Below, in pieces: positions 16,271 to 41,211 of a stretch of 56,658 nucleotides of DNA. The DNA lies in contig MTNR01000001.1 of assembly GCA_002011495.1 (NCBI GenBank), forward strand, positions 1-56,658, given 5' to 3'. Below the pieces are notes generated by a model that was not told the origin of the DNA, searched no databases, and was given only the letters and a program-made list of their open reading frames with translations. The translations under genes and the position numbers were made by a program. Each line of letters starts with the position of its first letter. Position 1 is the first letter of the stretch. The DNA is from Dehalococcoides sp. JdFR-56 (GTDB lineage Bacteria; Chloroflexota; Dehalococcoidia; Dehalococcoidales; RBG-16-60-22).

Positions 16271-16323
16271 GCCAAGGCCTCTGGTAAGGGCGGCCAGGCG
16301 GCGCAAATCAGCTTGAAAGACTG

Positions 16324-16854
16324 GTGAAAACGATGCTGGGAAACAGGTTAAAGCGCTATCCTGACAGGCTGGGGGAGTGGTGCTCCCGTGTGTCCACCGT
16401 GCTCACTGCGCTACTCCTGGTCTTCATGGCGCTGCTGATAACGGTAGATGTCATCGGGCGAGGCGTATTCTCCAAGCCGACCCTCATCGCTGATGCCGCG
16501 TCAGGGTACGCGCTGGTTGGCATCGTTTTCCTGGGCCTGGCGGTCAGCGAGTGGTCAGGGAAACACGTTACGGTGCAAATCCTAACCCGACGGCTGCCTC
16601 CACACCGGCGCGAGCAGGTGGAGGCAGCCGTCCTGATTATCACCTTGGCCTTCGCCATTTGGTTTCTCTGGATCCTGTTTGGCGTGGTCAAGGTGAATTA
16701 TGTCAACCAGACTGTTTCCATCGATGCCCTGCACATCCGCATGTGGATACCATATTCCGTCGGCCCCATTGGCACCGGTATTTTCGCCCTGGTGCTACTG
16801 GCTAAAGTGATTCAGAAAATAAGAGGCCTGGTGAGTGCTAGAGAAGTCAAATAA
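16324..16854 (+). CDS. TRAP transporter small permease (DctQ family), GTG start
   Basis: Four hydrophobic segments; VDVIGRGVFSKPT; position between DctP and DctM. Confidence 0.9.
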   Translation: MKTMLGNRLKRYPDRLGEWCSRVSTVLTALLLVFMALLITVDVIGRGVFSKPTLIADAASGYALVGIVFLGLAVSEWSGKHVTVQILTRRLPPHRREQVEAAVLIITLAFAIWFLWILFGVVKVNYVNQTVSIDALHIRMWIPYSVGPIGTGIFALVLLAKVIQKIRGLVSAREVK

Positions 16855-16921
16855 GCATGGGATACCGCCCGGGCTCTAAATTATATGCGTTAGGTCAATT
16901 GTTTGGCAGGGAGGTCAGTAA

Positions 16922-18223: not shown

Positions 18224-18276
18224 TTTTTGGCCACTAGTAGCAGGAGCTTAAAAGATGAGCTGAGGGAGGAAAATAA

Positions 18277-19362: not shown

Positions 19363-19387
19363 GCAGTGGGAAAGGAGTAGAGCCAAA

Positions 19388-20386
19388 ATGGCAAAAGTGA
19401 AAGCGGTGCAGTACGGATGCGGCCCAATTGGATGCGGCGTCACTAGATACGCGGCGCAGAAGGCAGATATTGAGATTGTGGGGGCCATTGACGTGGCCCA
19501 GGAACTGGTGGGGCGTGACCTCGGCGAGGTGGCCGGCCTTGACCGCAAGCTCGGGGTGACCATCTCCGCCGAGGCTGAAGCGGTACTAGCCCAAACCAGA
19601 CCAGACATCGTTTTTCTCACCACCGCCTCGGCCCTGAAGGCCACTCGCCCGCAGCTGGAGACCTGTCTCAAGGCGGGCATCAATGTGGTATCCACCTGTG
19701 AAGAGCTGGCCTACCCCTACTGGAGGGAGCCTGAACTTGCCGCGGAAATAGGTGCCCTGGCAAAGCGCAGCCAGGTGACCGTCCTCGCCACCGGAGTCAA
19801 CCCGGGATTCCTCATGGATACCTGGCCCCTGTTCATGACCGGCGTCTGCCAGGAGGTCAAGAAAATCAGGGCGGTCAGAATCCAGAATGCCTCCAGCCGC
19901 CGGGGGCCATTCCAGAAGAAGATAGGGGCTGGCTGCACCCTGGCTGAATTCCAGGAGAGGGTGGCCGCGGGCACGCTGCGCCATGTTGGCCTGGCAGAAT
20001 CGATCGCCATGATTGCCGCCGGTCTGGGCTGGAGGCTGGATGACATCACCGAGACCATTGAGCCGGTGGTGGCCAAAGCCCCGGTCAAGACCGATTTCGT
20101 CACCGTTTCCCCGGGGCAGGCCTCCGGGGTAAAACAGATTGCCAGGGGCTTGATGGGGGGAGAGGAAGTGATCACCCTGGAATTTGTCGCCTCGGTTGAT
20201 GCCCCGCAATCCTACGACGCGGTCTATATCAGCGGCCGGCCTGATCTAGAGGTCGTAATCCAGGGCGGGACCCATGGCGATGTGGCCACCGCGGCTGTCG
20301 TGGTCAACGCCGTGCCCCGGGTCCTCGCCGCGCCACCAGGCCTAGTTACCATGAAGGACCTGCCCATCGTTATCGCCCAGGGGTAA
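19388..20386 (+). CDS. Dihydrodipicolinate-reductase-like / NAD(P)H-dependent amine dehydrogenase family protein
   Basis: KVKAVQYGCGPIGCGVTRYAAQKADIEIVGAIDVAQELVGRDLGEVAGL, TGVNPGFLMDTWPLFMTGVCQEVKKIRAVRIQNASSRRGPFQKKIGAG. ATG 19388 preferred over track start. Confidence 0.85.
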   Translation: MAKVKAVQYGCGPIGCGVTRYAAQKADIEIVGAIDVAQELVGRDLGEVAGLDRKLGVTISAEAEAVLAQTRPDIVFLTTASALKATRPQLETCLKAGINVVSTCEELAYPYWREPELAAEIGALAKRSQVTVLATGVNPGFLMDTWPLFMTGVCQEVKKIRAVRIQNASSRRGPFQKKIGAGCTLAEFQERVAAGTLRHVGLAESIAMIAAGLGWRLDDITETIEPVVAKAPVKTDFVTVSPGQASGVKQIARGLMGGEEVITLEFVASVDAPQSYDAVYISGRPDLEVVIQGGTHGDVATAAVVVNAVPRVLAAPPGLVTMKDLPIVIAQG

Positions 20387-20433
20387 ATGGCTTGGTCGCT
20401 TGCTAAAAATAAAGAAATGGAGGAAAGAGGAAA

Positions 20434-21777
20434 ATGGCTTCAGCAAACATCGCCGAGCAATACAAACAGGCCCGCCCAGGCTCGCTAAAGCTGCACGAGC
20501 GGGCGGAGCGGCTGTTTCCGGCAGACGGGGCAACCCACGGCGCCCGTGTTCTTGACCCCTTCCGGCCCTACATCACGCACGCCAAGGGGTCAAAGAAATG
20601 GGATGTTGACGGTAATGAGTACATTGACTACGGGATGGGACACGGCGCCCTCATACTGGGACACGGCCATCCGGCGATAGTCCAGGCGATACAGGAGCAG
20701 ACGGCGAAAGGCCTGCATTACAGTGAGAACCAGCCCCTGGAAGTTGAATGGGGAGAGCTCATCAGCCAGATGATGCCTGTGGCCGAGCGGATTGAGGTGT
20801 GCGCCTCCGGGCAGGAAGGCAACCTGATGGCTATCCGGATAGCGCGGACCTTCACCGGAAGAAAGAAAATCATCCGCTTTGAGGAGAACTTCCATGGCTG
20901 GGCGGGTGAGGTGGCACCAGAGGGCTCCGCCGGGGTCACCATGCCGGAGGTCACCTTCCTCCCCATGAATGATATCGCCGTCGTGGAGAAGGAGCTGGCT
21001 AGCAGGGAATACGCCCTGGTCATGATTGAGGGCGGCGGCGCCCACATGGCCGGGCAGATACCCTGGGAATATGACTTCATCCGCGAGCTTCCCCTAGTCA
21101 CCAAGAAGTACGGGACGCTTCTCCTCATTGATGAGGTGGTCACCGGCTTCCGCGAGTCCCGTGGTGGCTGGCAGGAACTGGTGGGGGTCAAGCCTGATTT
21201 AACCACGCTGGGCAAATGTGTCGGTGGGGGTATCCCGGTGGGGGCGGTGGTGGGCCGGGCTGATGTCATGGAGGTGCTGGACCCCAAACGCCCAGCGGAG
21301 AAGCGCATCAGGCACACCGGGACCTGGAACGCCAATCCGATTCAGTGCGCCGCCGGCATTGCCGCCTGCAAGCTGTACTTGAACGGTGAGCCGCAGAAGA
21401 AAGCGGCTGAGATCGGCGCTTATCTCCGCGAGCAGGGAAATAAAATGCTCAAAGAGAAAAAGATAAGCGGGCGTCTCTATGGCCGCACCATCATCCACCT
21501 CTACCTTGGGCCAATAGAATATGAGCCCTCTGACCCCGCCTTCCCGCCGACAAGGAGCCTGGCGCAGATCATTAATCCGGCCATGATTCCGATAAAGAAT
21601 GAGCTGTGTCTGCGGCTGCTGGAGCGCGGGATAGCCACCATGGGGGCTAGGTTCTTCGTCATGTCAGCGGCGCACACCAGAGAGGATGTTGACCGGACGG
21701 TGGCGGCGCTAGCTTCATCACTGGATGAGATGATGGCCACCGGAGCGCTCAAGGAGAGCTTGGCCGGGGTTAAGTAA
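20434..21777 (+). CDS. Class III aminotransferase (glutamate-1-semialdehyde aminomutase-like)
   Basis: LLIDEVVTGFRESRGGWQELVGVKPDLTTLGKCVGGGIPVGAVVG; HTGTWNANPIQCAAG. Confidence 0.92.
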   Translation: MASANIAEQYKQARPGSLKLHERAERLFPADGATHGARVLDPFRPYITHAKGSKKWDVDGNEYIDYGMGHGALILGHGHPAIVQAIQEQTAKGLHYSENQPLEVEWGELISQMMPVAERIEVCASGQEGNLMAIRIARTFTGRKKIIRFEENFHGWAGEVAPEGSAGVTMPEVTFLPMNDIAVVEKELASREYALVMIEGGGAHMAGQIPWEYDFIRELPLVTKKYGTLLLIDEVVTGFRESRGGWQELVGVKPDLTTLGKCVGGGIPVGAVVGRADVMEVLDPKRPAEKRIRHTGTWNANPIQCAAGIAACKLYLNGEPQKKAAEIGAYLREQGNKMLKEKKISGRLYGRTIIHLYLGPIEYEPSDPAFPPTRSLAQIINPAMIPIKNELCLRLLERGIATMGARFFVMSAAHTREDVDRTVAALASSLDEMMATGALKESLAGVK

Positions 21778-26402: not shown

Positions 26403-26978
26403 TTAATCGGCGCAGTCCAGGATGAACCCGGTCTCGTCACAGCAGAAATACTTGGGACAGCGGATGCATTCGCCCCACACCTTGGAGGGGAGCTCCTCCT
26501 TCCGCTTGGGTTTAAAACCAAGCTTCTCAAAAATCCCTCCCATTGTGGAGAAGGCGAACACCTTCTTGATCCCGACCTTGCGGCCCTCTCCCACCAAATA
26601 TCGGACGATCTGCGATGCCAAGCCACGGTGCTGAAACTGGGGATGGGTGGCCAGCGAACGAATCTCAGCGATATCCTCCCAGAGCACGTGAAGGCTTCCG
26701 CAGGCCACAATCCTTGGCGGCGCCCTCCCCACATCCGCCTCCACCACCACAAAATCCCTTATGTTCTCATAGAGGTATTCTGGCCCCCTCGGCAGCATCA
26801 GGTTGGAGCTGGCGTAACTATTGACCAGCGCCAGAATCTCCTCCACATCGGAAACGCGGGCCCGCCTTAAAGTCAAGCCACCCGAGTGAAGTCCCTTCAA
26901 GTCCTCCTCCCCAAAACCAGCCTCCAGCTGGTATCTTCGCTCTGCATACTTGTGGTGCAAGCAAACATCCTCCGGCAA
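26403..26978 (-). CDS. GNAT N-acetyltransferase, N-acetylglutamate-synthase-like
   Basis: LTLRRARVSDVEEILALVNSYASSNLMLPRGPEYLYENIRDFVVVEADVG; HPQFQHRGLASQIVRYLV; CIRCPKYFCCDE. Confidence 0.82.
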   Translation of the reverse strand: MPEDVCLHHKYAERRYQLEAGFGEEDLKGLHSGGLTLRRARVSDVEEILALVNSYASSNLMLPRGPEYLYENIRDFVVVEADVGRAPPRIVACGSLHVLWEDIAEIRSLATHPQFQHRGLASQIVRYLVGEGRKVGIKKVFAFSTMGGIFEKLGFKPKRKEELPSKVWGECIRCPKYFCCDETGFILDCAD

Positions 26979-27123
26979 AACCCAGACCGATTTAAAAAGG
27001 TGCCTAAATCGTCAGCGATGGCACCGGGTCTTGATAATGCTATACAATAATGTAATACAATGGTATTGTCAAATAACCTATATTTTGTCCTATTTTCTCC
27101 CTAGTTCTAGGAAGGAGTGCACC

Positions 27124-27897
27124 GTGAAGGATGAGATAGAAGGCGTCATCTTTGATCTGGACGGGGTGCTTGAGTTCCAGGGGAAAGCCTATCCTGGAGC
27201 CATCGAGCTCCTCAATCTACTACGCAGCCGAGGGATTCCCATCCGGGTCCTCTCCAACAGCACCCTAAAAAGCAGGCGCTCATGTGCCGAGAAGCTGAAG
27301 AGCAAGGGCTTCAACATCCAGGAGCATGAGGTGGTCACCGCTTCCTTCGCCACGGCTCGATATCTGGAGACCCTTAATCCCAGGTCTTGTTGGGTGATGC
27401 TCAAGAGGGAGGGGCTGGAGGAATTTAGCGGTTTTCGGCATGATCCGGATGACCCCGAATATATCGTTCTCGGGGATTTTCGCGAGGACTTCAATTTTCA
27501 GAACTTAAACAAAGCGCTCCGGCTCCTGTGCAAGGGCGCCAAACTGATCGTCATGATCACAGAAACCGTGGACAGCAGCCTGGGGGAGATGGAGCTGACG
27601 GTGGGGGCATACGGGAAAATGCTCGAGGATGCCGCCGGCATCAAGGCCACCTACATCGGCAAGCCGAACCGTTATATCTTCGATATCACCCTGGATACCA
27701 TGGGGAACATCGAGAGAAGCCGAATCCTCATGGTGGGAGATAGGCTGGCCACCGACATCCTGGGGGCAAAGAACGCTGGCCTCAAGACAGCGCTGGTAAA
27801 GACCGGAGAGTTCCGGGAAAGCGACCTGGAGTCCCCGGTCGCCCTCCCGGACTATATCTTTGACTCGGTCGGCGAGGTCGCCAAACTCTTTCGCTGA
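27124..27897 (+). CDS. HAD-IIA family hydrolase (GTG start)
   Basis: VKDEIEGVIFDLDGVLEFQGKAYPGAIELLNLLRSRGIPIRVLSNS; ILMVGDRLATDILGAKNAGLKTALVKTG. Track start at 26950 overlaps the divergent GNAT gene. Confidence 0.9.
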   Translation: MKDEIEGVIFDLDGVLEFQGKAYPGAIELLNLLRSRGIPIRVLSNSTLKSRRSCAEKLKSKGFNIQEHEVVTASFATARYLETLNPRSCWVMLKREGLEEFSGFRHDPDDPEYIVLGDFREDFNFQNLNKALRLLCKGAKLIVMITETVDSSLGEMELTVGAYGKMLEDAAGIKATYIGKPNRYIFDITLDTMGNIERSRILMVGDRLATDILGAKNAGLKTALVKTGEFRESDLESPVALPDYIFDSVGEVAKLFR

Positions 27898-27936: not shown

Positions 27937-28938
27937 CTACTGACCTAGCGTTGCCACCATCACCGCCTTGATGGAGTGACAGCGGTTCTCCGCCTGGTCA
28001 AAGACGATTGATGCCTCCGATTCAAAAACATCCTCGGTGACTTCCATGCTCTCCAGGCCGAACTTCTGATAGACCTGCTCGCCGATGGTCGTCTCCCGAT
28101 TGTGGAAGGCGGGCAGGCAGTGCATAAACTTCACCTCAGGGTTACCGGTCATCTCCAGCACCTTTTGGTTCACCTGATACGGCTTAAGTAATTCGATTCT
28201 CTCCTTCCAGACGTCCTCCCCCTCACCCATGGATACCCAGACATCCGTGTAAAGAAAATCGCAATCCTTCACCCCCTCCGCCACGTTGTCCGTTATCTTG
28301 ATGCGGGCGCCGGTTTGCCTGGCGATCTCCTCCGCCTTCTGCACCAGCTCCCGCTGTGGCTGCAAGCTCTTGGGCGCCACGGAGCGGAAATCCATGCCCA
28401 TCTTGGCCATGCCGATAAGCAAGGAGTTACCCATGTTGAACCGCGCGTCTCCCAGATAGGCAACCTTCACCTCGCTCAATGGCTTGGGGGTATGCTCCAT
28501 TATGGTAAAAATGTCAGCAAGCACCTGGGTAGGGTGGAACTCGTTGGTAAGACCATTCCAAACAGGGACATTGGAATACTCGGCAAGGGCCTCCACGATC
28601 TCCTGGCCAAAGCCGCGGTAGCCAATCCCATCATACATCCTGCCCAGCACGCGGGCGGTATCCTTCATAGACTCCTTCTTCCCCAGCTGGGAAGCTGATG
28701 GGTCAAGGTAGGTTACCTTCGCTCCCTGGTCATAGGCGGCGGTTTCAAAAGCACACCTGGTTCTGGTGGAGGGCTTCTCAAAAACCAAGACAATGTTTTT
28801 ACCTACCATTCTCGGCTGCTCAGTGCCGGCATACTTCGCCCGCTTGAGCTCTGCAGTGAGGTCAAGCAAAAAGCGTATCTCCCCGGGGGAGAAGTCCAGC
28901 AGCTTCAAAAAGCTTCTGTTTCTGAGATTATAAGCCAT
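27937..28938 (-). CDS. Ornithine carbamoyltransferase
   Basis: [71 protein letters not shown]. Confidence 0.95.
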
Positions 28939-29184
28939 CTTGCACCTCCTGATTTTTTAGTTTTGATTTGCTTTTTCCAGCCGAAAATCAAGACAGCGAT
29001 TTTTACTTCAGCCCCTCGCCTGGGCATTTCCGGGAAATTAAAGCTTTATTATCGCCACAAGCCAAAGCAAATGTCAAGCGGTCTAAACCCCTAAATTCCC
29101 AAAATTGGGCAGATATCAACCAGATTAGTCCCCAAATCTCGCAATTTCAAGCTAATTTTTCACAAAAATGGGGTTTTTACCCTC

Positions 29185-29214
29185 TTGACAAAGGCCAAAA
29201 GTGCATTTTAAAAT
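29185..29214 (+). promoter_or_regulatory. Predicted promoter upstream of cPGS-like gene
   Basis: TTGACA-N18-TAAAAT; implies a leader of about 360 nt. Confidence 0.5.
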
Positions 29215-29285
29215 GGGTTGCCGTATTTTTTTTTCAAGGGTGGAGACAGGGTGGGGGTTTTTGATTTGTTTTTAAATTCAAAAAT

Positions 29286-29345
29286 GGTGGGCGTGAAGCC
29301 GATTAGTCGGCTAGGGCCACGCTAAAGGGCAAAGATGCTGCCACC
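29286..29345 (+). ncRNA. Candidate structured leader RNA of unidentified class
   Basis: Nested stems GGTGG/CCACC, GCGTG/CACGC and AGCCGA-TTAG-TCGGCT. Confidence 0.35.
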
Positions 29346-29487
29346 GGAAAGAATAGTGAAAAACAGCGATAACGACCCAAGACCGTGGAAAGGGATGGCC
29401 AAGATCAGGTCACCAAACGATATAGATGCGGATGTCTCCCATCTTGTCATCTTGTAACCTAAATTTAACCGGCTCGACATATTCAGG

Positions 29488-29538
29488 AAACAATTATTGT
29501 TTAAACTGAAGAGGTTCTAATATTGAACCCCAGTTTAA
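29488..29538 (+). promoter_or_regulatory. Overlapping operator-like palindrome and composite hairpin upstream of cPGS-like gene
   Basis: AAACAAT-T-ATTGTTT (29488-29502) then TTAAACTG-aaga-GGTTC-taatatt-GAACC-c-CAGTTTAA (29501-29538). Confidence 0.55.
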
Positions 29539-29578
29539 GCAACAAAGCGCCAAAACAAAAGCAGAGGGATAAGCAGGT

Positions 29579-30943
29579 ATGAAGAAGAAAAATATTCTCA
29601 TTATCGGCTCCGCAGGAAGAGACTTTCATAACTTCAACATGTACTTCAAGGACAATGAAGAGTACAATGTGGTGGGCTTCACCGCCTCACACCAGGTCCC
29701 CGGTATTGTGGGGCGAAAATATCCTCCCGAGCTGGCCGGCAAGCTCTATCCGGAAGGAATCCCCATCTATGCGGAGGAGGAACTTGCCCAGCTGATAAAG
29801 GAGCTCAACGTTGATATCTGCGTCTTTTCCTACAGTGATGTTTCCTACCAACACGTGATGGGCATCGGGGCCATCGTAAATGCCGCCGGGGCCAACTACA
29901 TGATGCTCGGCCCCAAGGACACCATGCTCAAAAGCAAGAAACCGGTCATCGCGGTGGGCGCGGTGAGAACCGGCTCCGGCAAGAGCCAGACCTCAAGAAG
30001 GGTCATTGAGATCCTGATGGCGAAGGGATTGAAAGTGGTCGCGGTACGCCACCCCATGCCCTATGGCGACCTAGCTGCTCAGAGGGTGCAGCGCTTCGCC
30101 GAGCTAGCTGACCTCCAGAAGCACAACTGCACCGTGGAAGAGATGGAGGAGTATGAGCCACACATCGTGCGCGGCAATGTTATCTACGCCGGGGTAGACT
30201 ACCCGGCCATCCTAAAGGCGGTGGAGGAAGACCCCAGGGGCTGCGATGTCATCGTCTGGGATGGTGGCAACAACGACTTCCCCTTCTTCAAGCCCGACCT
30301 GATGATAACCGTTACCGACCCTCACCGCCCAGGCCATGAGCTCTCCTACTATCCCGGGGAAATCAATCTACGCATCGCCGATGTCGTGGTCATCAACAAG
30401 ATTGACAGCGCCTATCCGGAGAACATTCAGAAGGTGCGGGAGAGCATCGCCAGGGTGAACCCCAGAGCCACCGTGGTTGATGCCGCCTCTCCGATCAAGG
30501 TTGATGACCCGCAGATAATCAAGGGGAAGAAGGTGCTGGTCATCGAGGACGGCCCCACGCTGACGCACGGGGAGATGACCTACGGTGCGGGCACAGTTGC
30601 CGCGCAGCGGTACGGGGCAAGCGAGTTGGTAGACCCCAGGCCCTACACCGTGGGGAGCATCACCGAGACGTTCCAGCTCTACCCCTACATCGGCAAACTC
30701 CTGCCGGCGATGGGCTATGGCGAGCAGCAGCGCAAAGACCTGGAGGTGACCATCAACCGGACCGAATGTGACGCGGTGGTGGTGGCAACCCCCATTGACC
30801 TAAGCCGGGTGGTGGACATCAAGAAGCCGAATACCCGGGTTTACTATGAGCTTCAGGAGATCGGGACACCAAACCTGGACGAGATACTGTCCGAGTTCGG
30901 GAAGGCGCATAATCTTCCTATGAAGAGTGCCAAAGGGGCATGA
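29579..30943 (+). CDS. Cyclic 2,3-diphosphoglycerate synthetase-like P-loop protein
   Basis: KNILIIGSAGRDFHNFNMYFKDN; PVIAVGAVRTGSGKSQTSRRVIEIL; VIVWDGGNNDFPFFKPDLMITVTDPHRPGHE. Confidence 0.88.
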   Translation: MKKKNILIIGSAGRDFHNFNMYFKDNEEYNVVGFTASHQVPGIVGRKYPPELAGKLYPEGIPIYAEEELAQLIKELNVDICVFSYSDVSYQHVMGIGAIVNAAGANYMMLGPKDTMLKSKKPVIAVGAVRTGSGKSQTSRRVIEILMAKGLKVVAVRHPMPYGDLAAQRVQRFAELADLQKHNCTVEEMEEYEPHIVRGNVIYAGVDYPAILKAVEEDPRGCDVIVWDGGNNDFPFFKPDLMITVTDPHRPGHELSYYPGEINLRIADVVVINKIDSAYPENIQKVRESIARVNPRATVVDAASPIKVDDPQIIKGKKVLVIEDGPTLTHGEMTYGAGTVAAQRYGASELVDPRPYTVGSITETFQLYPYIGKLLPAMGYGEQQRKDLEVTINRTECDAVVVATPIDLSRVVDIKKPNTRVYYELQEIGTPNLDEILSEFGKAHNLPMKSAKGA

Positions 30944-31153
30944 ACACTCGGAGCTGGGAAACGAGGATACCGCTTTGCTGGACCGATTCTTCATCATCTC
31001 GCGGTTCAGTATTCCGCCCGCGGTGCGTGACGGCGAGCGGGAAGACTAGAAGCCGGTATTATGACCAAGCAGAAGGAGGTGTTTCCGCTATGTAGCAGTG
31101 AAATGGTTACCAGGAGAGCCGGGTACAGCCTGAATTAGAAAGGAGAACACGAA

Positions 31154-32341
31154 ATGGCAAAGATTGTGAATTCCTGGAACGAGTGGGACCCCCTAAAACA
31201 CGTGATCATCGGCAGACCAGAGGGCACAAACGTTCCCGCTCCAGAGCCAGCCTGGTGGTATGATCTGCCGGAAGGCGAGTACCCACTGCCGACGTATGGT
31301 CCTTTCCCACAGGAGATGGTGGATGCGGCCAATGAGCAGATGGATTACTTCGTCTCGGTGCTGGAGAAGCGGGGGGTCAAGGTGGACCGGGCGATAATCC
31401 ATCCCTGTATGTACAACAAACCGGTCTCCACACCGGACTGGACGCAGCTGAACTGCCATGGCGTCAACAACGTTCGGGACGTGTTCCTGGTTCACGGCAA
31501 GTATATCATTGAGGCCACCACCTGCCGCCGCTCCCGATGGTACGAGTATCTGAACCTGCGCCCGCACTTTGAGCGGTTCTTCAAAGAGGACCCGGAGATG
31601 GTGTGGTTCACCGCCCCCAAGCCGCGATTGACAGACGAGTCCTACGTCAAGAATTACTACTACTACTTCAACAACGTCTGGACTGATGAGGAGAAGCGGG
31701 ACCGGCTGTACAACTGGGAGTTCCAGCTGACCGAGAAGGAGCCCCTCTGGGATGCTGCCGATGCCATGCGCTTCGGCAAGGATATTTTCCACCAGGGGTC
31801 GTGCGTGACCAACAAGAGCGGCATGGACTGGCTGAAGCGCATGTTCGCCGAGCTCGGCATCCGGGTGCACCACGTCCTGTTTGACACCCCATGGCCTCCA
31901 TCGCCGGACCGACCGGATAACTACCATCCCTGGCACATTGACGTGAACCTGGTTCCGTTGCGACCGGGGCTGTGCATGTACAACCCAGACTGGAAGCCAC
32001 GCACCCCGGAGCTGTGGGAACTGTTCAAGATAAATGACTGGGAGCTGATTCCCGCTGCCAGGCCGACCTACGTGCACAAGAACAAGGTCTACCTCACCGG
32101 GCTGTATGAGGGCAAGTCATGGATCTCGATGAACACCTTCTCCATTGACCCGAAGACGGTCTGTGTGGAGGCGCACGAGACGGCATACTGCGAGCAGCTG
32201 GACAAGCTTGGCTTCGAGGTAATCCCCATCCCCTACGAGAAGGTGATCCCGTTTGGCGGTGCTCTGCACTGCACCACGCTGGACATCTACCGAGAGGGCA
32301 AACTGGAGGATTACTTCCCGAAGCAGATCCCGGGCTACTAA
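31154..32341 (+). CDS. Glycine-amidinotransferase-like (guanidino-modifying superfamily) protein
   Basis: MAKIVNSWNEWDPLKHVIIGRPEG; WDAADAMRFGKDIFHQGSCVTN; WHIDVNLVPLRPG; FGGALHCTTLD. Asp, His and Cys positions of the amidinotransferase triad appear conserved. Confidence 0.9.
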   Translation: MAKIVNSWNEWDPLKHVIIGRPEGTNVPAPEPAWWYDLPEGEYPLPTYGPFPQEMVDAANEQMDYFVSVLEKRGVKVDRAIIHPCMYNKPVSTPDWTQLNCHGVNNVRDVFLVHGKYIIEATTCRRSRWYEYLNLRPHFERFFKEDPEMVWFTAPKPRLTDESYVKNYYYYFNNVWTDEEKRDRLYNWEFQLTEKEPLWDAADAMRFGKDIFHQGSCVTNKSGMDWLKRMFAELGIRVHHVLFDTPWPPSPDRPDNYHPWHIDVNLVPLRPGLCMYNPDWKPRTPELWELFKINDWELIPAARPTYVHKNKVYLTGLYEGKSWISMNTFSIDPKTVCVEAHETAYCEQLDKLGFEVIPIPYEKVIPFGGALHCTTLDIYREGKLEDYFPKQIPGY

Positions 32342-32355
32342 TAACCGACCAACGA

Positions 32356-32389
32356 AACGGGGCGCCTTGGCAAGGTGAGGCGCCCCGTT
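32356..32389 (+). terminator. Strong hairpin between amidinotransferase and symporter genes
   Basis: Perfect 12-bp stem AACGGGGCGCCT/AGGCGCCCCGTT, 10-nt loop, no real U-tract. Confidence 0.6.
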
Positions 32390-32437
32390 GAAATTTGGGA
32401 GGGGATGAGGCTTCCTTAAAGGAGGTAAAAAAGCAAG

Positions 32438-33961
32438 ATGAACGGTTATCAGATCGGTTTGATCTCCCTTGTAGCGTTGTATGTCCTGGTCGGTGTGGCC
32501 ATGTTCTACCTGGTTCAGCGGAGCGGCCGGCGCTTCATCATCGCCGGTAAGCGGCTGCCTTTATTCCTGATAGGCACCATGCTCTTCGCCCAGGCGCTGG
32601 ACGCCAACGCCACGCTGGGAAATGCCGGAGGCGTGTATGCCGGTGGGTTTTGGGCTGGATTCCAGTTTCCGCTGGGGCTAGCCCTGTGTCTTGTTGTCGT
32701 CGCGATATGGTACGCCAAGCCCCTGAACCGGATGAACCTGATCACGCTGGCCGATTTCTACTTCCGGAGGTATGGCCGCAAGGTAGAAGTCCCCGTGGGA
32801 CTGCTCATGTGTTTCAGCTTCGTCATCCTGGTCGCGGGCAACTTGGCCGGTGCCTCCTGGATAATCCACATGGTCTTCGGCTTTGACTACCTCCCGTCGC
32901 TGATCATAATGAGTATCCTTCTCCTTGCCTACACCTTCAGCGGCGGGCTTTTCTCCTGCGCAGCCACAGACATAGTGCAGCTATACCCCGCTCTGCTAGC
33001 CTTCGTTGGAGGCGCTATCTGGCTATTCTTCAGCTACGGTGGCGGCGATTGGGGCTACTTTGCTGCGGCAATCCCAGCTGGCTACGCTGACCTTAGCGGC
33101 CTATACTCCATAGAAAACGGGGCACTTCTGAACTGGGCGGGTATCCTGGCGCTCGGCATTGGTGACGTGGTTGCCCTTGACTTCATGGAAAGAGTCTTTG
33201 CCGCTAAAGACCCGGAAACTGCCCGCAGGGGCTGCTTGTGGGGCGCTGGGTTCACCCTGATACTGGGGCTGGCAGCTTCATTCATTGGTCTGATGGCCTT
33301 CCAGCTCTTTGGGGACATCGATGACCCCAGGTCAGTCATAGTGCTGGCGGCGACCTCCATGCCGTTGGTCGTCGGGCTATTCGTCATGGCTGGTGTCATC
33401 GGTGCCGGGCTATCCACTGCCAATGGTGGCGCACTGGCTGTAGCCGCGGTGCTGGGCAGGAATATGCTGCACCGGAACATTGTCCTGCCCATGCACAGAA
33501 GAAAGGCCAGAAAGCTGGGAGTGAGCGTTGAAGACTTGGGGATTGACTGGCGTGTTCTGGACCGCAGGCTTCTCTGGTGGGCCCGCCTCATGCTAATACC
33601 AGTGATGGCAGCGTCAGTTTACCTGGCCTACGTCAAACCTGAGCCAGGCATCATGCTGGTTCTCGCCTTTGACGTGGTCTTCGCCGGGTGTCTGGTGCCT
33701 CTGACGCTGGGCATCTACTGGAAAAAGGCAAACGCGTATGGGGCGCTGGCATCAGTCGTCATCGGGTCTTTGCTCCGATTATACTTGTTCTTGACCATCC
33801 CGGAGCATTTAGCCGGTTTGGATACACTAATTCCGCCGGTTGTCTCCCTCCTGGTGATGGTGCCAGTGAGCTTGCTAACGCAGAAACAAGACCCGCCAAA
33901 GCATGAGGTGATCTTCGAAACTCCCAGCGAGGAAGAGGTGGCCCGAGCCATACGCTACTAA
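32438..33961 (+). CDS. Sodium:solute symporter family protein
   Basis: About 12-13 hydrophobic segments; GRRFIIAGKRLPLFLIGTMLFAQALDANATLGNAGGVYAGGFWAG. Confidence 0.9.
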   Translation: MNGYQIGLISLVALYVLVGVAMFYLVQRSGRRFIIAGKRLPLFLIGTMLFAQALDANATLGNAGGVYAGGFWAGFQFPLGLALCLVVVAIWYAKPLNRMNLITLADFYFRRYGRKVEVPVGLLMCFSFVILVAGNLAGASWIIHMVFGFDYLPSLIIMSILLLAYTFSGGLFSCAATDIVQLYPALLAFVGGAIWLFFSYGGGDWGYFAAAIPAGYADLSGLYSIENGALLNWAGILALGIGDVVALDFMERVFAAKDPETARRGCLWGAGFTLILGLAASFIGLMAFQLFGDIDDPRSVIVLAATSMPLVVGLFVMAGVIGAGLSTANGGALAVAAVLGRNMLHRNIVLPMHRRKARKLGVSVEDLGIDWRVLDRRLLWWARLMLIPVMAASVYLAYVKPEPGIMLVLAFDVVFAGCLVPLTLGIYWKKANAYGALASVVIGSLLRLYLFLTIPEHLAGLDTLIPPVVSLLVMVPVSLLTQKQDPPKHEVIFETPSEEEVARAIRY

Positions 33962-34039
33962 AAGACGTTAGTCCATCTGCTGAGGCAGAAAGGAGGACAA
34001 ACTTAACGCAGCGCAGCAGGCGAGGAGGAGATAGCAGCT

Positions 34040-35011
34040 ATGGAGAGAAACAGAAGCAAAACCTTTGTCATTGCCCTTGGTGGTAACTCCATCCTGAGAG
34101 CAAAGCAGAAAGGAAGTGCCGAAGAGCAGTATGAGAATATAGAGCGCACCGCGGAACAGCTACTGGATTTGCTCAGCAGCGGGAACCGCATCGTAATCAC
34201 CCACGGCAATGGACCACAGGTTGGCAATCTGCTCCTCGCCTGCGAGGCTGCCAAAGATATCGTGCCCCCTCTGCCCCTGGACATCTGCGGCGCAGCCACG
34301 GAGGGCTTCATGGGCTACATGATTCAGAATACCCTGGCCAACCAGCTGCGGCGGATAGGGGCCCCACACAATATCACCACCGTGGTAACCCAGGTGATCG
34401 TGGACCGCAATGACCCCGCCTTCAAGCACCCCTCCAAACCAATAGGCCCCTTCTACAGCGCCGAGGAGGCAGAGCAGCTGCGAAGAGAGAAAGGGTGGGA
34501 GATCATTGAAGACAGCGCCCGTGGTTACCGGCGGGTGGTGCCCTCACCAATACCGGTGAATATCCAGCAGGCCAGAATCATCAAGAGCATGCTAGATAGC
34601 GGCGAGATAGTGATCGCCGTCGGTGGCGGTGGCATCCCGGTGGTGAGGGAGGCTAACCGCGACCTGCGCGGCGTTGAAGCGGTGATTGACAAGGACTACG
34701 CCTCAGCCCGCCTGGCCATCGAGATAGATGCTGACGTCCTGTTTATTCTCACCGCGGTGGAGTATGCCTATCGAGACTTCGCCACACCTCAGCAGAAGGC
34801 GCTGGAGGAGCTGAGCCTGGCAGAAGCCAAGAAACTTCTGGAGGAAGGCCACTTCGGCAAGGGAAGCATGGAGCCCAAGATCCGGGCCGCCATAATGTTC
34901 CTGGAGGAAACAAGCCCAGACCCATCGCGGGAACGGGAGGTGATCATAACCCTCCCTGAGACGGCGATGAAGGCGCTCGAGGGCAAGACCGGCACCAGGA
35001 TTATCAGATAG
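34040..35011 (+). CDS. arcC: Carbamate kinase
   Basis: FVIALGGNSILR; ITHGNGPQVGNLLL; IAVGGGGIPVVREANRDLRGVEAVIDKDYASARLAIEIDADVLFILTAV. Confidence 0.96.
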   Translation: MERNRSKTFVIALGGNSILRAKQKGSAEEQYENIERTAEQLLDLLSSGNRIVITHGNGPQVGNLLLACEAAKDIVPPLPLDICGAATEGFMGYMIQNTLANQLRRIGAPHNITTVVTQVIVDRNDPAFKHPSKPIGPFYSAEEAEQLRREKGWEIIEDSARGYRRVVPSPIPVNIQQARIIKSMLDSGEIVIAVGGGGIPVVREANRDLRGVEAVIDKDYASARLAIEIDADVLFILTAVEYAYRDFATPQQKALEELSLAEAKKLLEEGHFGKGSMEPKIRAAIMFLEETSPDPSREREVIITLPETAMKALEGKTGTRIIR

Positions 35012-35166: not shown

Positions 35167-35210
35167 TTGACAAATGGCGTTAGCCGGTTTATAATTGCAA
35201 CTGGTTGCAC
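35167..35210 (+). promoter_or_regulatory. Consensus sigma-A promoter overlapped by palindromic operator, upstream of Fur-family gene
   Basis: TTGACA-N17-TATAAT (35167-35195); TGCAAC-TG-GTTGCA (35196-35209). Confidence 0.85.
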
Positions 35211-35739: not shown

Positions 35740-36378
35740 ATGCATATCCCCGATGGCTTTCTGAACATGGCCACTGTGGCGAGCACCTACACCATATCGG
35801 TGGGTGGGGTGGCCAACGCGGTGAGGATAGCCAATAAGAAACTGGGGGAAAAGCAGGTGCCCATGATGGGAGTTTTGGCCGCCTTCATCTTTGCTGCCCA
35901 GATGCTCAATTTCCCGGTAGCCGGGGGCACCTCCGGGCACCTCATCGGCGCGGCGCTGGCAGCTATTTTGCTCGGGCCATGGGCAGCGGTGATCATAATG
36001 AGTGCGGTGCTCATCGCCCAGAGCCTCATCTTTCAGGATGGCGGCCTCCTCGCCCTGGGAGCCAATATCTTCAATATGGCCATCATCGCCAGCTTCAGCG
36101 CCTATTATATCTACCGCCTAGCCCAGTCACTCCTTGGCGATAGCGGCAAGGGGCAGCTCATCGGCGTTTTCGCGGCTAGCTGGGGCTCGGTGTTACTTGC
36201 CTCCATCGCCTGTGCCGTGGAGCTGGCCATCTCAGGGGCGTCACCCTGGGGGGTGGTTCTGCCCGCCATGGCTGGCGTCCACGCCCTTATTGGTATCGGT
36301 GAAGGGCTTATCACCTCAGCCGTGGTCAGCCTGGTGCTGGCCACCAGAGCTGACCTCATGCGCCTGCAAAAAATCTAG
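35740..36378 (+). CDS. Energy-coupling factor nickel/cobalt transporter S component (CbiM/NikM)
   Basis: N-terminal MHIPDGFLN metal-binding signature; FPVAGGTSGHLIGAALAAILLGPWAAVIIMSAVLIAQSLIFQDGGLLALGANIFNMA. Confidence 0.95.
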   Translation: MHIPDGFLNMATVASTYTISVGGVANAVRIANKKLGEKQVPMMGVLAAFIFAAQMLNFPVAGGTSGHLIGAALAAILLGPWAAVIIMSAVLIAQSLIFQDGGLLALGANIFNMAIIASFSAYYIYRLAQSLLGDSGKGQLIGVFAASWGSVLLASIACAVELAISGASPWGVVLPAMAGVHALIGIGEGLITSAVVSLVLATRADLMRLQKI

Positions 36379-36396
36379 CCGTTTGGGAGGACACAG

Positions 36397-36690
36397 ATGA
36401 GCAAGAAATGGTGGATAATCGCGCTAGTTATCTCTCTGGCGCTGGCCACCATATCGCCCTTGGCCTCGTCAGCGCCCGATGGGCTGGAAAGGGTGGCCGA
36501 GGATAATGGCTTCCTTAGCCTGGCATTGGAAGCGCCATTTGAGATTGTGGCTGATTACGTCTTTCCGGGGATAGCCAATGAGGCGCTGGCCACCATAATC
36601 GCCGGCTGGCTGGGCACCATCCTTTTGTTTATCGCCGTATACGGTCTTGCTTGGTTAATCAAATCAAGAAGAAGGACAACTACTGTCTAG
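36397..36690 (+). CDS. PDGLE/NikN-like small membrane component
   Basis: SAPDGLERVAEDNGF; two TM segments; operon position. Confidence 0.88.
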   Translation: MSKKWWIIALVISLALATISPLASSAPDGLERVAEDNGFLSLALEAPFEIVADYVFPGIANEALATIIAGWLGTILLFIAVYGLAWLIKSRRRTTTV

Positions 36691-36719
36691 TCAGATACCA
36701 AGTCCCATAGGTGTAATGA

Positions 36720-37493
36720 ATGAGGCACAGTTTCCTCGACCAGTATAGCGACCGGGATAGCCTGATACACCGGCTTGACCCCCGCACCAAGCTGGTGAGC
36801 ACCTTTCTCTTCATAACCGCGGTGGCGCTGACGCCACCTGACGGATGGGTGTCTTACGCCCTGTACTCGGCCATCTTGGCCATCTGGCTAATGCTATCCC
36901 GTGTGCCCCTCGGCTACGTTCTCAAGCGCTCCCTGGTGGTCCTCCCCTTCGTGGTGCTGATCGCCATATTCATCCCCTTTTTCCGGGAGGGAGAAATAGC
37001 CGGTAGCTACAATCTGTGGCTGTGGCAAGTGTCAGTTACCCACAGCGGGATTATCATCCTGCGCAATATCCTGATTCGGGCCTGGCTCTCCGTCCTCAGC
37101 CTGATTCTGCTCACCTCAACCACCAAGCTGCCTGACCTTCTGAGGGGGCTGGAGCAACTGCACATGCCCCGGGTAATGGTCATGGTGCTCTCCTTCATGT
37201 ATCGGTATATCTTTGTGCTGGTGGATGAAGTGATGCGGATGAAGCAGGCCAGGGACAGCCGCAACTTCGGTGGCCGGCGCTGGTGGCAGATACGGACGGT
37301 GGGCAATATGATCGGCACCCTCTTCATCCGTGCCTATGAGCGCGGGGAAAGGGTTTACGCCGCCATGATGGCCAGAGGCTTTGACGGCCAAAGCCGGACG
37401 CTGAAGCGCCTGGAATTCAAGCCGGCGGATGCCTACTTTGGGCTGAGCCTCGGGACGCTGGTCATCTGGGGCAACCTCATCAACCTAATTTAG
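36720..37493 (+). CDS. ECF transporter T component (CbiQ)
   Basis: HRLDPRTKLVSTFLFITAVALTP; MARGFDGQSRTLKRL. Confidence 0.93.
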   Translation: MRHSFLDQYSDRDSLIHRLDPRTKLVSTFLFITAVALTPPDGWVSYALYSAILAIWLMLSRVPLGYVLKRSLVVLPFVVLIAIFIPFFREGEIAGSYNLWLWQVSVTHSGIIILRNILIRAWLSVLSLILLTSTTKLPDLLRGLEQLHMPRVMVMVLSFMYRYIFVLVDEVMRMKQARDSRNFGGRRWWQIRTVGNMIGTLFIRAYERGERVYAAMMARGFDGQSRTLKRLEFKPADAYFGLSLGTLVIWGNLINLI

Positions 37494-37509
37494 CTAGCCA
37501 AACAAGATT

Positions 37510-38232
37510 ATGGACGACGCCATCAGAATAGAAAAACTCTCCTTCAGCTACCCCGATGGCCACCAGGCCCTTGCCGGGGTCAGCCTGGTCATTGGCCGGG
37601 GGGAATCAGTGGGCATCGCCGGCCCCAACGGGGCGGGGAAGTCCACCCTGCTGCTTCACCTAAACGGCATACTGCGCTCAGATGATGGGGCGGTCAAGGT
37701 CTTGGGGCAGCCCGTGGATGATAAGAACCTGAGGTGGATAAGAAGCAAGGTGGGGCTGGTATTCCAAGACCCGGATGACCAGCTATTCTCGCCGACCGTT
37801 TTTGATGATGTCGCCTTTGGCCCCATCAACATGGGCTATACCGCATCTGAGGTCAAAGAGGCAGTAGCCAGGGCTCTGGACTGGGTTGGCATGAAGGGCT
37901 GTGAGGAGCGCTCTTGCCACCACCTCAGCTTTGGTGAGAAGAAGCGGGTTTCCCTGGCCACCGTCCTGGCCATGGACCCCGAGATACTGGTGCTGGATGA
38001 GCCTACCAGCAACCTTGACCCCGCCGGCAAGTGGGCCCTGATCAGCCTGCTCAAAAAACTGGCCGTGACCAAGATAGTCGCCACCCATGACCTTGAGATG
38101 ATGCAGGCTCTCTGCCAGCGCATCGTCCTCCTGGACCAGGGGCAGGTGGTGGCTGAAGGCCCTGCGGAGAAGATTCTGGCGGATAAGGATTTGCTCGCTG
38201 CCCACGGGCTGCTCTCCGCCGAGCCAGTCTAA
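37510..38232 (+). CDS. ECF transporter ATP-binding component (CbiO)
   Basis: GIAGPNGAGKSTLLLHLNGIL; VFQDPDDQLFSPTVFDDVAFGPINMG; LSFGEKKRVSLATVLAMDPEILVLDEPTSNLD. Confidence 0.97.
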   Translation: MDDAIRIEKLSFSYPDGHQALAGVSLVIGRGESVGIAGPNGAGKSTLLLHLNGILRSDDGAVKVLGQPVDDKNLRWIRSKVGLVFQDPDDQLFSPTVFDDVAFGPINMGYTASEVKEAVARALDWVGMKGCEERSCHHLSFGEKKRVSLATVLAMDPEILVLDEPTSNLDPAGKWALISLLKKLAVTKIVATHDLEMMQALCQRIVLLDQGQVVAEGPAEKILADKDLLAAHGLLSAEPV

Positions 38233-38414
38233 CCAACCCCTAGCTAGACCCCTTCACCACAAAAGATACCTCACTTCCTCTCTTCATTTGATTTCCTCCG
38301 CAGCGAGAACCGCTCCAAGGTCGCCTGCGCTTTTGCAGAAATGGTATAATTAAGCGCAAAGCAAAGGCCGCTCTCAAGTAAGCCAAACTGTTTATTATTT
38401 TGGAGGTGATTTGG

Positions 38415-39266
38415 GTGAAGAGGTCAGCTCATCTGGCAGAAGGCGCTGATAGCACGCTTTCGGCAAAACTGGAGGCCTTAAAGGGCCTGCTTTCTGAGAT
38501 GGGGAGCGTGCTCATCGCCTATTCTGGCGGGATGGACAGCACCTTTCTGCTCAAAATAGCCTCCAGCGTGCTCGGAGACAAGGTGATGGCGGTAACCGCC
38601 AGCTCAGAAACCTACCCCTCAAGGGAGATGGAGGAAGCCAAGCGTAATGCCCAGATGCTTGGGGTAAGACACCTGGTCATCCATACCTGCGAGCTGGAGG
38701 ATGCCAACTTCACCTCCAACCCCCCGGAGAGATGTTATTACTGCAAGAAAGAGCTGTTCTCCAAGCTGGTGGAACTGGCCCGGCAATATGACCTAAACTA
38801 TGTGGCTGATGGCTCAAACTATGATGACTTGAACGATTTTCGCCCAGGGATGAAGGCAGCCGCCCAGTTTGGCGTGAGGAGCCCGTTAAAGGAGGCCAAG
38901 CTCACCAAAGAGGATATCAGAAGGCTCTCCCGGGAGATGAATCTGCCCACTTGGGATAAACCACCCCAGCCTTGTCTCTCAAGCCGGTTTCCCTACGGCG
39001 CCCCCATCACCAAGGAGAAGCTCTCCCGGGTTGAGCTCGCCGAGGAGTTTTTGATGAGCTTCGGCATCAGGCAGCTGAGGGTGAGAGACCATGGTGACAT
39101 CGCCAGAATAGAGGTTCCCAGGGAGGACATGCCCCTGCTTCTCGATGAGAAAGCGGCCAGGAAAATCGTGGAGCGGTTCAAGGCCCTGGGCTACAACTAC
39201 ATCACGCTGGATATCCAGGGCTACCGCATGGGCAGCATGAACGAGCCACTAAAGAGGGGGAGTTAG
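38415..39266 (+). CDS. larE: LarE, ATP-dependent sacrificial sulfur transferase
   Basis: VLIAYSGGMDSTFLLKIA; NPPERCYYCKKELFSKL; WDKPPQPCLSSRFPYG. GTG 38415 has a GGAGGTGAT ribosome-binding site. Confidence 0.93.
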   Translation: MKRSAHLAEGADSTLSAKLEALKGLLSEMGSVLIAYSGGMDSTFLLKIASSVLGDKVMAVTASSETYPSREMEEAKRNAQMLGVRHLVIHTCELEDANFTSNPPERCYYCKKELFSKLVELARQYDLNYVADGSNYDDLNDFRPGMKAAAQFGVRSPLKEAKLTKEDIRRLSREMNLPTWDKPPQPCLSSRFPYGAPITKEKLSRVELAEEFLMSFGIRQLRVRDHGDIARIEVPREDMPLLLDEKAARKIVERFKALGYNYITLDIQGYRMGSMNEPLKRGS

Positions 39267-39268
39267 CC

Positions 39269-40027
39269 TTGGACAGGGAGAAGATAACCGAGCTTCTGGA
39301 AAAGGTGAGAGAGGGGAAAATCGAGGTCACCGAGGCATTAGGCATGCTGAAATCCCTCCCCTACGAGGATCTTGGCTTTGCCAAGATAGATACCCACCGG
39401 GATCTAAGGAAAGGCTTCCCTGAAGTGATTCTGTGCCGGGGGAAAACCCCGGAGCAGGTGGCCAAAATCATGGAGAGGCTGGCTATGGGCAACAAGTTCG
39501 TCATGGCCACCAAAGCAAGCCAGGACGTTTATCAGGCGGTGAAAAAGGTAAGGCCAGATGCCGTCTACCATGAAATGGCGAAGATAGTAGTCGTCGGCAG
39601 GAAAGAGCGGGAGATGGCGACCAGAACCATCCTGGTGGTCAGCGCCGGAACCGCTGACCTGCCCATCGCCGAAGAGGCCGCGGTCACCGCCGAGGCCATG
39701 GGCAACGCGGTGGAGCGGCTCTATGACGTCGGTGTGGCCGGAGTCCACCGCTTCTTTGACCACAAAGAGAAGCTGTTTGGGGCCAATGTCATCATCGTTG
39801 TCGCTGGGATGGAAGGAGCCCTAGCCAGCATCGTGGGCGGGCTGGTGGATAGACCGGTGATCGCCGTCCCCACCAGCGCCGGCTATGGGGCCAGCTTTGA
39901 GGGGCTGGCGGCGCTGCTGACCATGCTCAACTGCTGCGCACCGGGCGTGGTGGTGGTGAACATAGATAACGGCTTTGGGGCCGGATACTTTGCCAGCATC
40001 ATCAACCAGATGGGCGCGGAGAGATGA
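39269..40027 (+). CDS. larB: LarB, nickel-pincer cofactor biosynthesis carboxylase (TTG start)
   Basis: FAKIDTHRDLRKGFPEVILCRGKTPEQVAKI; VVSAGTADLPIAEEAAVTAEAMG. Confidence 0.95.
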   Translation: MDREKITELLEKVREGKIEVTEALGMLKSLPYEDLGFAKIDTHRDLRKGFPEVILCRGKTPEQVAKIMERLAMGNKFVMATKASQDVYQAVKKVRPDAVYHEMAKIVVVGRKEREMATRTILVVSAGTADLPIAEEAAVTAEAMGNAVERLYDVGVAGVHRFFDHKEKLFGANVIIVVAGMEGALASIVGGLVDRPVIAVPTSAGYGASFEGLAALLTMLNCCAPGVVVVNIDNGFGAGYFASIINQMGAER

Positions 40028-41211
40028 AGATAGCCTACTTTGACTGCTTTTCCGGCGTCAGCGGCGATATGATTTTGGGCGCCCTGATTGATGCCGGGCT
40101 GGAACTGCGGGAGCTTGAAGCGGAACTAGATAAACTGAAGCTCTCCGGATACAAGCTCAGCGCGGAGAAAGTAATAAGAGCGGGTATCTCTGGCACCAAG
40201 TTCAGCATGGAGATAACTGAGCAGAGCGGGGAGAGGAGATTAAAGGATATCACCCAACTCATTGACCAGAGCAGCCTGGACAGCGATATCAAAACCTTAG
40301 GCAAGAGGGTATTCCAGGAGCTGGCCACGGTTGAGGCGGAAATCCACGGCAAAGACGCTGCCGAAATACACTTCCATGAAGCCGGGGGGCTTGATTCCAT
40401 CATAGACGTGATTGGTTCCCTGGTCGCCATAAAGAAGCTCGGCATTGAGGCAGTTTACGTATCCAAGATTCACCTCGGCACCGGCTTTGTTCAGTGCCGG
40501 CACGGGATGCTTCCCGTCCCAGCCCCGGCCACATTGGCTCTGCTCAAAGGGGTACCAATCCGCTCCCAAGGTATAGAGGCGGAGCTGGCTACCCCAACTG
40601 GCGTCTCGCTCCTCAGGACCCTAGCCCGGAGCTTTGGCACTATGCCGGAGATGCGGCTGGAGAAGGTGGGCTACGGCGCCGGGAGCCGGGAGCTGGAGAT
40701 ACCAAACCTATTGAGAGTGTACATTGGCGAAGCCGACGAGGGAGAATATGAACGGGACGAGGTTATCCTCATGGAAACGAACCTGGACGACACCAGCCCA
40801 GAGCTGCTGGCCCACGCCTCGGAAGTGCTCCTGAAACAAGGGGCGCTTGACGTCTTCATGACGCCCATCTTCATGAAGAAGAACCGTCCCGGAACCATGC
40901 TCAGCGTTCTGACGACGCCGGATAAGCTTGATATGCTCCTTGCTACCATCTTCAACGAGATAGCCACCCTAGGCGTCCGCCTGCACCATCTGGAAAGGAG
41001 AAAACTCTCCCGCGAAGTCATCTCCGTAGAGACCAGATTCGGGGAGATAAAGGTGAAGATAGGTAGACTGGAGAACAAGGTCAAAGCCATCTCCCCCGAA
41101 TACGAGAGCTGCCGGGAAATCGCGCTGAAATTGGGAATCCCCCTAAAAGAGGTCTACGACGAAGCCAAAGAGATGGCTAGAAAAGCGCTATCCGGGGAAA
41201 AGAGTACCTAA
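40024..41211 (+). CDS. larC: LarC, nickel insertion protein, uninterrupted single ORF
   Basis: MKIAYFDCFSGVSGDMILGALIDAGL; IHFHEAGGLDSIIDVIG; ETNLDDTSPELL. Confidence 0.95.
   Translation: MKIAYFDCFSGVSGDMILGALIDAGLELRELEAELDKLKLSGYKLSAEKVIRAGISGTKFSMEITEQSGERRLKDITQLIDQSSLDSDIKTLGKRVFQELATVEAEIHGKDAAEIHFHEAGGLDSIIDVIGSLVAIKKLGIEAVYVSKIHLGTGFVQCRHGMLPVPAPATLALLKGVPIRSQGIEAELATPTGVSLLRTLARSFGTMPEMRLEKVGYGAGSRELEIPNLLRVYIGEADEGEYERDEVILMETNLDDTSPELLAHASEVLLKQGALDVFMTPIFMKKNRPGTMLSVLTTPDKLDMLLATIFNEIATLGVRLHHLERRKLSREVISVETRFGEIKVKIGRLENKVKAISPEYESCREIALKLGIPLKEVYDEAKEMARKALSGEKST

Follow-up and report, generated by a model that had tools for sequence, protein, structure and literature searches.

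In the arginine deiminase pathway (arcA-arcB-arcC), the genes for ornithine carbamoyltransferase (OTC) and carbamate kinase (CK) cluster with that of an enzyme of the guanidino-modifying superfamily, and ATP is obtained from carbamoyl phosphate. Aerobic degradation of creatinine and creatine involves creatininase, creatinase and sarcosine oxidase, with release of urea. Among the amidinotransferases, L-arginine:glycine amidinotransferase (AGAT, GATM), SxtG, HsvA and StrB1 have been characterised, and arginine serves as their donor. Here we describe a locus of Dehalococcoides sp. JdFR-56, within a stretch of 56,658 nucleotides (contig MTNR01000001.1, positions 1 to 56,658; hereafter the window), that shares features with these systems. 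Like the deiminase pathway it has clustered OTC and CK genes and a member of the guanidino-modifying superfamily, but the deiminase that defines this pathway is lacking; instead, the module encodes an amidinotransferase (AT), a P-loop protein related to cyclic 2,3-diphosphoglycerate synthetase (the cPGS-like protein) and, beside AT, an SSS symporter. We tentatively propose, with somewhat less than even confidence, that the module serves an energy-conserving catabolism of guanidino compounds, in which ornithine would be the amidino carrier, CK would recover ATP and the cPGS-like protein would be the best candidate for the conversion of arginine to citrulline.

The gene set, its amidinotransferase and the missing deiminase

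The five module genes are intact in the list of open reading frames (ORFs) of the window, with the boundaries first assigned to them. A sequence-only reading of this DNA had described an OTC gene divergent from a plus-strand series of cPGS-like, AT, SSS and CK genes (29579-35011), and the ORFs, the family matches and the clusters of relatives all agree with that picture. The same reading had asked whether a deiminase operon existed elsewhere, whether the neighbourhood was conserved and whether AT had kept its catalytic Cys, His and Asp. It came through on all three points: a search of the genome with TIGR01078 gave no arginine deiminase, the gene set recurs in Dehalococcoidia, Desulfobacterota and other phyla, and Cys373, His261 and Asp200 are present.

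Relatives of AT were sought in 84,980 species genomes, and L numbers denote the loci of these relatives. In Dehalococcoidia and Desulfobacterota the module genes occur at 60-85% identity (45-84% for CK); in the loci of the best AT relatives, identities to the window are 81-84% for AT, 72-85% for the cPGS-like protein, 74-78% for OTC and 45-84% for CK. The order is cPGS-AT-SSS-CK in the Dehalococcoidia loci L001 and L004 and OTC-CK-cPGS-AT(-SSS) in the Desulfobacterota loci L002, L005, L006 and L007. L008 (Peptococcaceae) has AT-SSS only, and in L010 (Actinobacteria) and L011 (Acidobacteriota) AT stands together with cPGS and CK. Because independent genomes have these genes clustered as well, their grouping is far above chance, and the variation of order and strands around a constant gene set favours functional coupling with lateral spread over an inherited gene order. 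Among the 83 ATs of a tree, those of the window branch form one clade. The cPGS-like gene also adjoins ATs of other branches, in at least three further lineages (L020/L021 of Acidimicrobiia, L033 of Chloroflexota and L055 of Desulfobacterales), and in two of these CK and/or OTC is present as well. L033 has an OTC-like fragment and cPGS near AT, and L055 the order AT-CK-cPGS-OTC-GNAT-HAD, in which the GNAT and HAD genes found beside OTC in the window recur. ATs of other branches have joined cPGS, CK and OTC genes separately. Plasmid records of AT relatives (Streptomyces, Photobacterium) are without annotation. L004, L005 and L006 also have copies of the HAD gene, 66-72% identical, in the vicinity of the module.

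No Pfam or NCBIfam model matched AT above its cut-off, and the sequence matches SxtG, HsvA, AGAT and StrB1 at E values of 1e-54 to 1e-38. The structure model (pLDDT 92) ranks SxtG (8.5e-37) and AGAT (1.6e-36) as nearest folds, with HsvA and StrB1 among the following, down to 1.4e-31; the first arginine deiminase appears only at 7.6e-12. Because both fold and sequence are nearest to true amidinotransferases, with the deiminases far behind, AT is predicted to be an amidinotransferase and no deiminase; the fold ranking led us to reject the latter assignment. AT has the same fold as AGAT and SxtG, with 31-34% identity in the structural match. It differs from AGAT by an insertion before the catalytic His and by being encoded in a CK/OTC operon, and by its sequence it falls inside the amidinotransferase family without being an AGAT in the strict sense.

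The catalytic triad of AGAT is Cys407/His303/Asp254 (PMC3684758). Asp109, Asp200, His261 and Cys373 of AT correspond to AGAT Asp170, Asp254, His303 and Cys407, all of which are kept. Arg322 and Ser354/Ser355 of AGAT, which we take to hold the amino-acid carboxylate, are replaced by Trp280 and Gly320/Lys321 in the window AT. The Trp and Lys substitutions are common to nearly all of its closest relatives, and Arg322 is retained in the AT branches of L033, L055, L020_1/L021 and Pelagibacter. Since these substrate-binding residues are replaced, window-type ATs should have another donor or acceptor than AGAT, or bind them in another way. AGAT uses arginine as donor, and reactions of this type run both ways, with an equilibrium constant close to 1 (PMC9950171), so that the direction of AT would be set by its context.

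The window genome is 92.75% complete. Besides the deiminase, an arginase-family gene was sought there and none was found, for which reason we reject arginase and urea as the source feeding CK in this genome; such a source may exist in one relative, L157. The six nearest genomes with the module have no deiminase match over 45 bits, and no deiminase above the curated cut-off, which is strict, was found in 18 AT-bearing, 80 cPGS and 11 further AT genomes. Full-length deiminase-like genes just under this cut-off exist in G179 and, as two copies, in G317, the genome of L021.

The cPGS-like protein and its link with carbamate kinase

Databases label this family cyclic 2,3-diphosphoglycerate synthase. 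By sequence, the window protein matches the synthetase (cDPGS) over one part only (E 6e-7 across 105 residues). A search with its structure model (pLDDT 94) returned cDPGS first, then LpxK; the Foldseek match with cDPGS has a probability of 1.00, an E value of 1.9e-17, a TM score of 0.43 and 17% identity. The two-domain architecture with a P-loop kinase domain is common to the cPGS-like protein and the Methanothermus fervidus cDPGS (8ork, 8oru). About 75 columns are invariant in 35 cPGS-like sequences, including RTGxGKS, RHPMxY, WDGGNND and EDGP, and the P-loop itself never varies. The P-loop of the M. fervidus enzyme binds 2,3-diphosphoglycerate through Lys145 and Arg146 (PMC10690619). At their position the cPGS-like proteins have an invariant Thr131-Gly132 (35 sequences); the P-loops were paired by the GK[ST] motif, because the profile alignment has no confidence in this region. 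Whereas cDPGS has the Lys-Arg pair, the cPGS-like protein lacks it and has CK, OTC and ornithine genes as neighbours; from the P-loop pair and the gene context it is predicted not to be a true cDPG synthetase. The suspicion in the sequence-only reading that this protein may have another function was therefore well placed, the more so as the family tracks CK across genomes.

CK accompanies the cPGS-like protein in about 85-90% of carrier genomes in two phyla. Among 301 Chloroflexota genomes it is present in 48 of the 54 with a cPGS-like gene, after removal of 12 weak matches, versus 44 of the 247 without the family (odds ratio 37, p 2e-23). Among 247 Desulfobacterota genomes the counts are 40/47 and 10/200 (odds ratio 109, p 2e-29), and in 23 of the 47 the two genes lie within 4 kb; both Fisher tests ignore the relatedness of genomes. 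The pairing extends to a haloarchaeal plasmid of Salinirubellus (NZ_CP147842; L205:11027-13341), where arcC is divergent beside a 'cyclic 2,3-diphosphoglycerate synthase' gene. On this plasmid, universal stress proteins and an amino acid permease surround the pair.

Other neighbours of cPGS-like genes broaden the picture. OTC, cPGS and CK overlap in this order in L132, and cPGS stands with OTC and CK in L141, L164 and L172. In L162, L169, L170, L179 and L181 it accompanies an aminotransferase of the ornithine-aminotransferase kind (PF00202), aldehyde dehydrogenase and proline dehydrogenase, and in L156, L157 and L172 OraE and CK. The argS gene adjoins cPGS in ten Chloroflexota, and in one Chloroflexota genus a divergent deiminase-like protein (83-88 bits with deiminase models) is encoded between argS and cPGS (L118, 11270-12541; L143; L146). 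Judged by these annotations, the shared theme of the neighbours is the breakdown of arginine, citrulline and ornithine together with carbamoyl phosphate. A literature search, with most subscription journals and preprints outside it, found neither the AT-cPGS-CK-OTC module nor the pairing of cPGS with CK described, nothing joining diphosphoglycerate with carbamate kinase and ornithine, and nothing naming COG2403.

The proposed route and its alternatives

In the proposed catabolic route, the SSS symporter would import a guanidino compound, most likely creatine, guanidinoacetate or a relative; the symporter itself scores under the cut-offs of the PutP, PanF and ActP models. AT would transfer the amidino group of this compound to ornithine, giving arginine and a free amine. 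Arginine would be converted to citrulline, in what is the weakest step; here the cPGS-like protein stands out as best candidate, since no deiminase or arginase was found, since it sits at the place of arcA beside arcB and arcC and since no other gene found in the genome suits this reaction. From the roles of their families, OTC would cleave citrulline by phosphorolysis to carbamoyl phosphate and ornithine, and CK would use carbamoyl phosphate to form ATP. On balance, the guanidino carbon and nitrogens would leave as CO2 and ammonia, one ATP would be gained, ornithine would be recycled as carrier and the amine would be left.

The choice of substrate is guided by the neighbourhoods of relatives. 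A creatininase gene (PF02633, 201 bits) lies between AT and cPGS in L033; genes for a GCV_T/sarcosine-oxidase-alpha-like protein, a DAO oxidoreductase and an ETF subunit precede AT in L055; and an arginase-family protein, an MttB-family methyltransferase and an M24/creatinase-like protein are encoded near an AT without cPGS in L027. These neighbours favour creatine-type compounds for the loci of the relatives. The window cluster, in which the symporter is the only clue to the substrate, has no creatininase or sarcosine-oxidase-like gene (the rest of its genome was not searched for them). Related AT-cPGS modules have genes like those of aerobic creatine degradation nearby, but the window module is without creatinase, and its amidino group would be transferred and the carbamoyl part used for ATP formation rather than released as urea. 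The sequence-only reading had offered two roles for AT. One, in which an imported compound gives up its amidino group and CK conserves energy, agrees with the creatininase and sarcosine-oxidase-like genes beside related loci; the other, replacement of the deiminase by AT itself, does not fit the fold and sequence of a transferase.

Several observations weigh against the proposed route. The link with creatine comes from relatives whose ATs belong to other branches. Ornithine is not assured as acceptor, because the residues for carboxylate binding in AGAT are replaced in the window AT, and deimination needs no P-loop enzyme. Deiminases above 250 bits occur in only 5 of the 301 Chloroflexota genomes; with such rarity across the phylum, the absence of the enzyme is permissive and no proof of its replacement. 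The Acidimicrobiia genome with the AT-cPGS locus L021 is the one with two full-length deiminase-like genes, and the ornithine aminomutase cluster of L157, which has cPGS-like and CK genes, also encodes an ornithine racemase domain fused to an arginase-like domain (L157:12754-14859). Finally, the window OTC may serve biosynthesis, since it is the only full OTC of a genome (the other match is partial, 127 bits) in which argininosuccinate synthase is also present.

The same catabolic route could operate with a cPGS-like protein that makes no citrulline. It would then be an ATP- or GTP-dependent partner of CK, acting on carbamoyl phosphate, carbamate or some other small product or guarding the flux through CK. 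We consider this possible but rather doubtful. CK is the most constant neighbour of the family, also in the haloarchaeon where no arginine gene is nearby, the P-loop is invariant, and its structural relatives, cDPGS and LpxK, transfer phosphoryl groups in an ATP-dependent manner; however, where CK is no direct neighbour, cPGS-like genes are linked to argS and ornithine genes as well, and no CK was found in 6/54 and 7/47 of the cPGS genomes, several of which are drafts. A wider form of the citrulline proposal is that the whole family, bacterial and haloarchaeal, belongs to carbamoyl-phosphate metabolism as a nucleotide-binding stand-in for arginine deiminase, unrelated to it, which would convert arginine or an equivalent guanidino or ureido compound to the substrate of OTC and CK and, together with AT, would open creatine-type compounds to a fermentation-like formation of ATP. 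This generalisation we regard as doubtful.

A biosynthetic direction seems unlikely. Here CK would form carbamoyl phosphate out of bicarbonate and ammonia, arginine would arise through OTC and argininosuccinate synthase/lyase, and AT would amidinate an imported amine to a guanidino solute or phosphagen-like compound, with regeneration of ornithine. That OTC is unique in the genome, that argininosuccinate synthase is present, and that AT has the fold of enzymes taking arginine as donor (AGAT, SxtG, HsvA and StrB1) would all suit this direction, but CK usually runs towards ATP, cPGS-CK pairs occur near ornithine aminotransferase, OraE and proline dehydrogenase, which belong to ornithine degradation, and the creatininase and sarcosine-oxidase-like neighbours suggest breakdown. 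Quite improbable is an AT acting as a deiminase-like hydrolase on the imported compound or on arginine and feeding OTC and CK directly, since the shared deiminase superfamily, the lack of deiminase and arginase in the genome and the changed substrate-binding residues are outweighed by a fold and sequence closest to transferases and by a cPGS-like protein left unexplained.

If the proposed catabolic route is correct, organisms that seem unable to use them, such as sediment Dehalococcoidia and Desulfobacterota, would gain energy from arginine or creatine-like compounds with an amidinotransferase and a second enzyme, still to be assigned, taking the place of arginine deiminase, and a family mislabelled as cyclic 2,3-diphosphoglycerate synthase would receive a function.

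Layout of the locus and further observations

The features of the locus are collected in Table 1. OTC and CK exceed the curated cut-offs of their family models, and the STRTR, SMG and HCLP motifs presumably mark the window OTC as an ornithine enzyme. A ribosome-binding-like sequence precedes each of the five module genes, and the plus-strand genes are separated by 210 (cPGS-AT), 96 (AT-SSS) and 78 bp (SSS-CK). The promoter-like sites in the OTC-cPGS gap point in both directions; together with the one after CK, they make a single four-gene transcription unit, cPGS-AT-SSS-CK, a reasonable reading of the sequence.

Table 1. Position of module genes, flanking genes and putative signals in the window
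Feature	Position	Strand	Description
OTC	27937-28938	minus	333 aa; PRK04284 (OTC subfamily model) 565 bits, TIGR00658 429 bits; STRTR, SMG, HCLP motifs
cPGS-like P-loop protein	29579-30943	plus	454 aa; PF02492 weak; weak homology with cDPGS
Amidinotransferase (AT), AGAT/SxtG family	31154-32341	plus	395 aa; matches SxtG, HsvA, AGAT, StrB1
SSS symporter	32438-33961	plus	507 aa; PF00474 87.5 bits
Carbamate kinase (CK)	34040-35011	plus	323 aa; TIGR00746 (arcC) 404.5 bits, cut-off 358
HAD-IIA phosphatase-like protein	26950-27897	plus	TIGR01460 138.6 bits; true start probably downstream
GNAT acetyltransferase, ArgA-like/PRK07757 type	26403-26978	minus	PRK07757 162.6 bits
Promoter-like site for OTC	29048-29077	minus	TTGACA-18-GATAAT; consensus 11/12; alone no evidence of function
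Promoter-like site, plus-strand operon	29185-29214	plus	TTGACA-18-TAAAAT; consensus 11/12; leader of ~365 nt
Promoter-like site after CK, before Fur-family gene	35167-35195		consensus 12/12
Possible start-stop mini-ORF GGAGGTGTTTCCGCTATGTAG	31075-31095	plus	64 nt before AT; read from the sequence, without statistical test

Rfam at gathering thresholds found no family in the surroundings of the module in the window and four relatives, the leader included. Control by a guanidine or glycine riboswitch was rejected, as relaxed filters gave one chance-level match only. Comparison of the leaders of the window, L001 and L004 by blastn gave no convincing match. The mini-ORF upstream of AT consists of ATG-TAG behind a strong Shine-Dalgarno sequence, and L001 and L004 have 3-codon mini-ORFs with similar ribosome-binding sites in the gap before AT. 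These mini-ORFs are a possible translational leader.

Elsewhere in the window, positions 15200-21777 encode in a row a TRAP transporter (DctP, small and large permease), a protein that matches no family, a relative of 2,4-diaminopentanoate dehydrogenase (302 bits against a cut-off of 400) and an aminotransferase resembling glutamate-1-semialdehyde aminomutase, perhaps another catabolic cluster for amino acids or amines. Translations of 35740-41211 give a cbiM/cbiQ/cbiO-like transporter followed by larE, larB and larC-like genes of nickel-pincer cofactor synthesis. In two relatives, a conserved pair of a permease of unknown family and an isochorismatase-type hydrolase occurs after CK (L001:6584-8297) and near AT-SSS (L008:827-2536). 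The hydrolase is equally close to nicotinamidase, biuret hydrolase and N-carbamoylsarcosine amidase and receives no assignment; the pair may handle a ureido or amide compound. In L020, the gene of a second amidinotransferase, with Tyr at the position of Arg322, has as neighbours those of a class III aminotransferase, an amidohydrolase-like protein, agmatine deiminase and an amidase resembling nitrilases (L020:7965-14129), a gene content that probably represents a polyamine or agmatine route.

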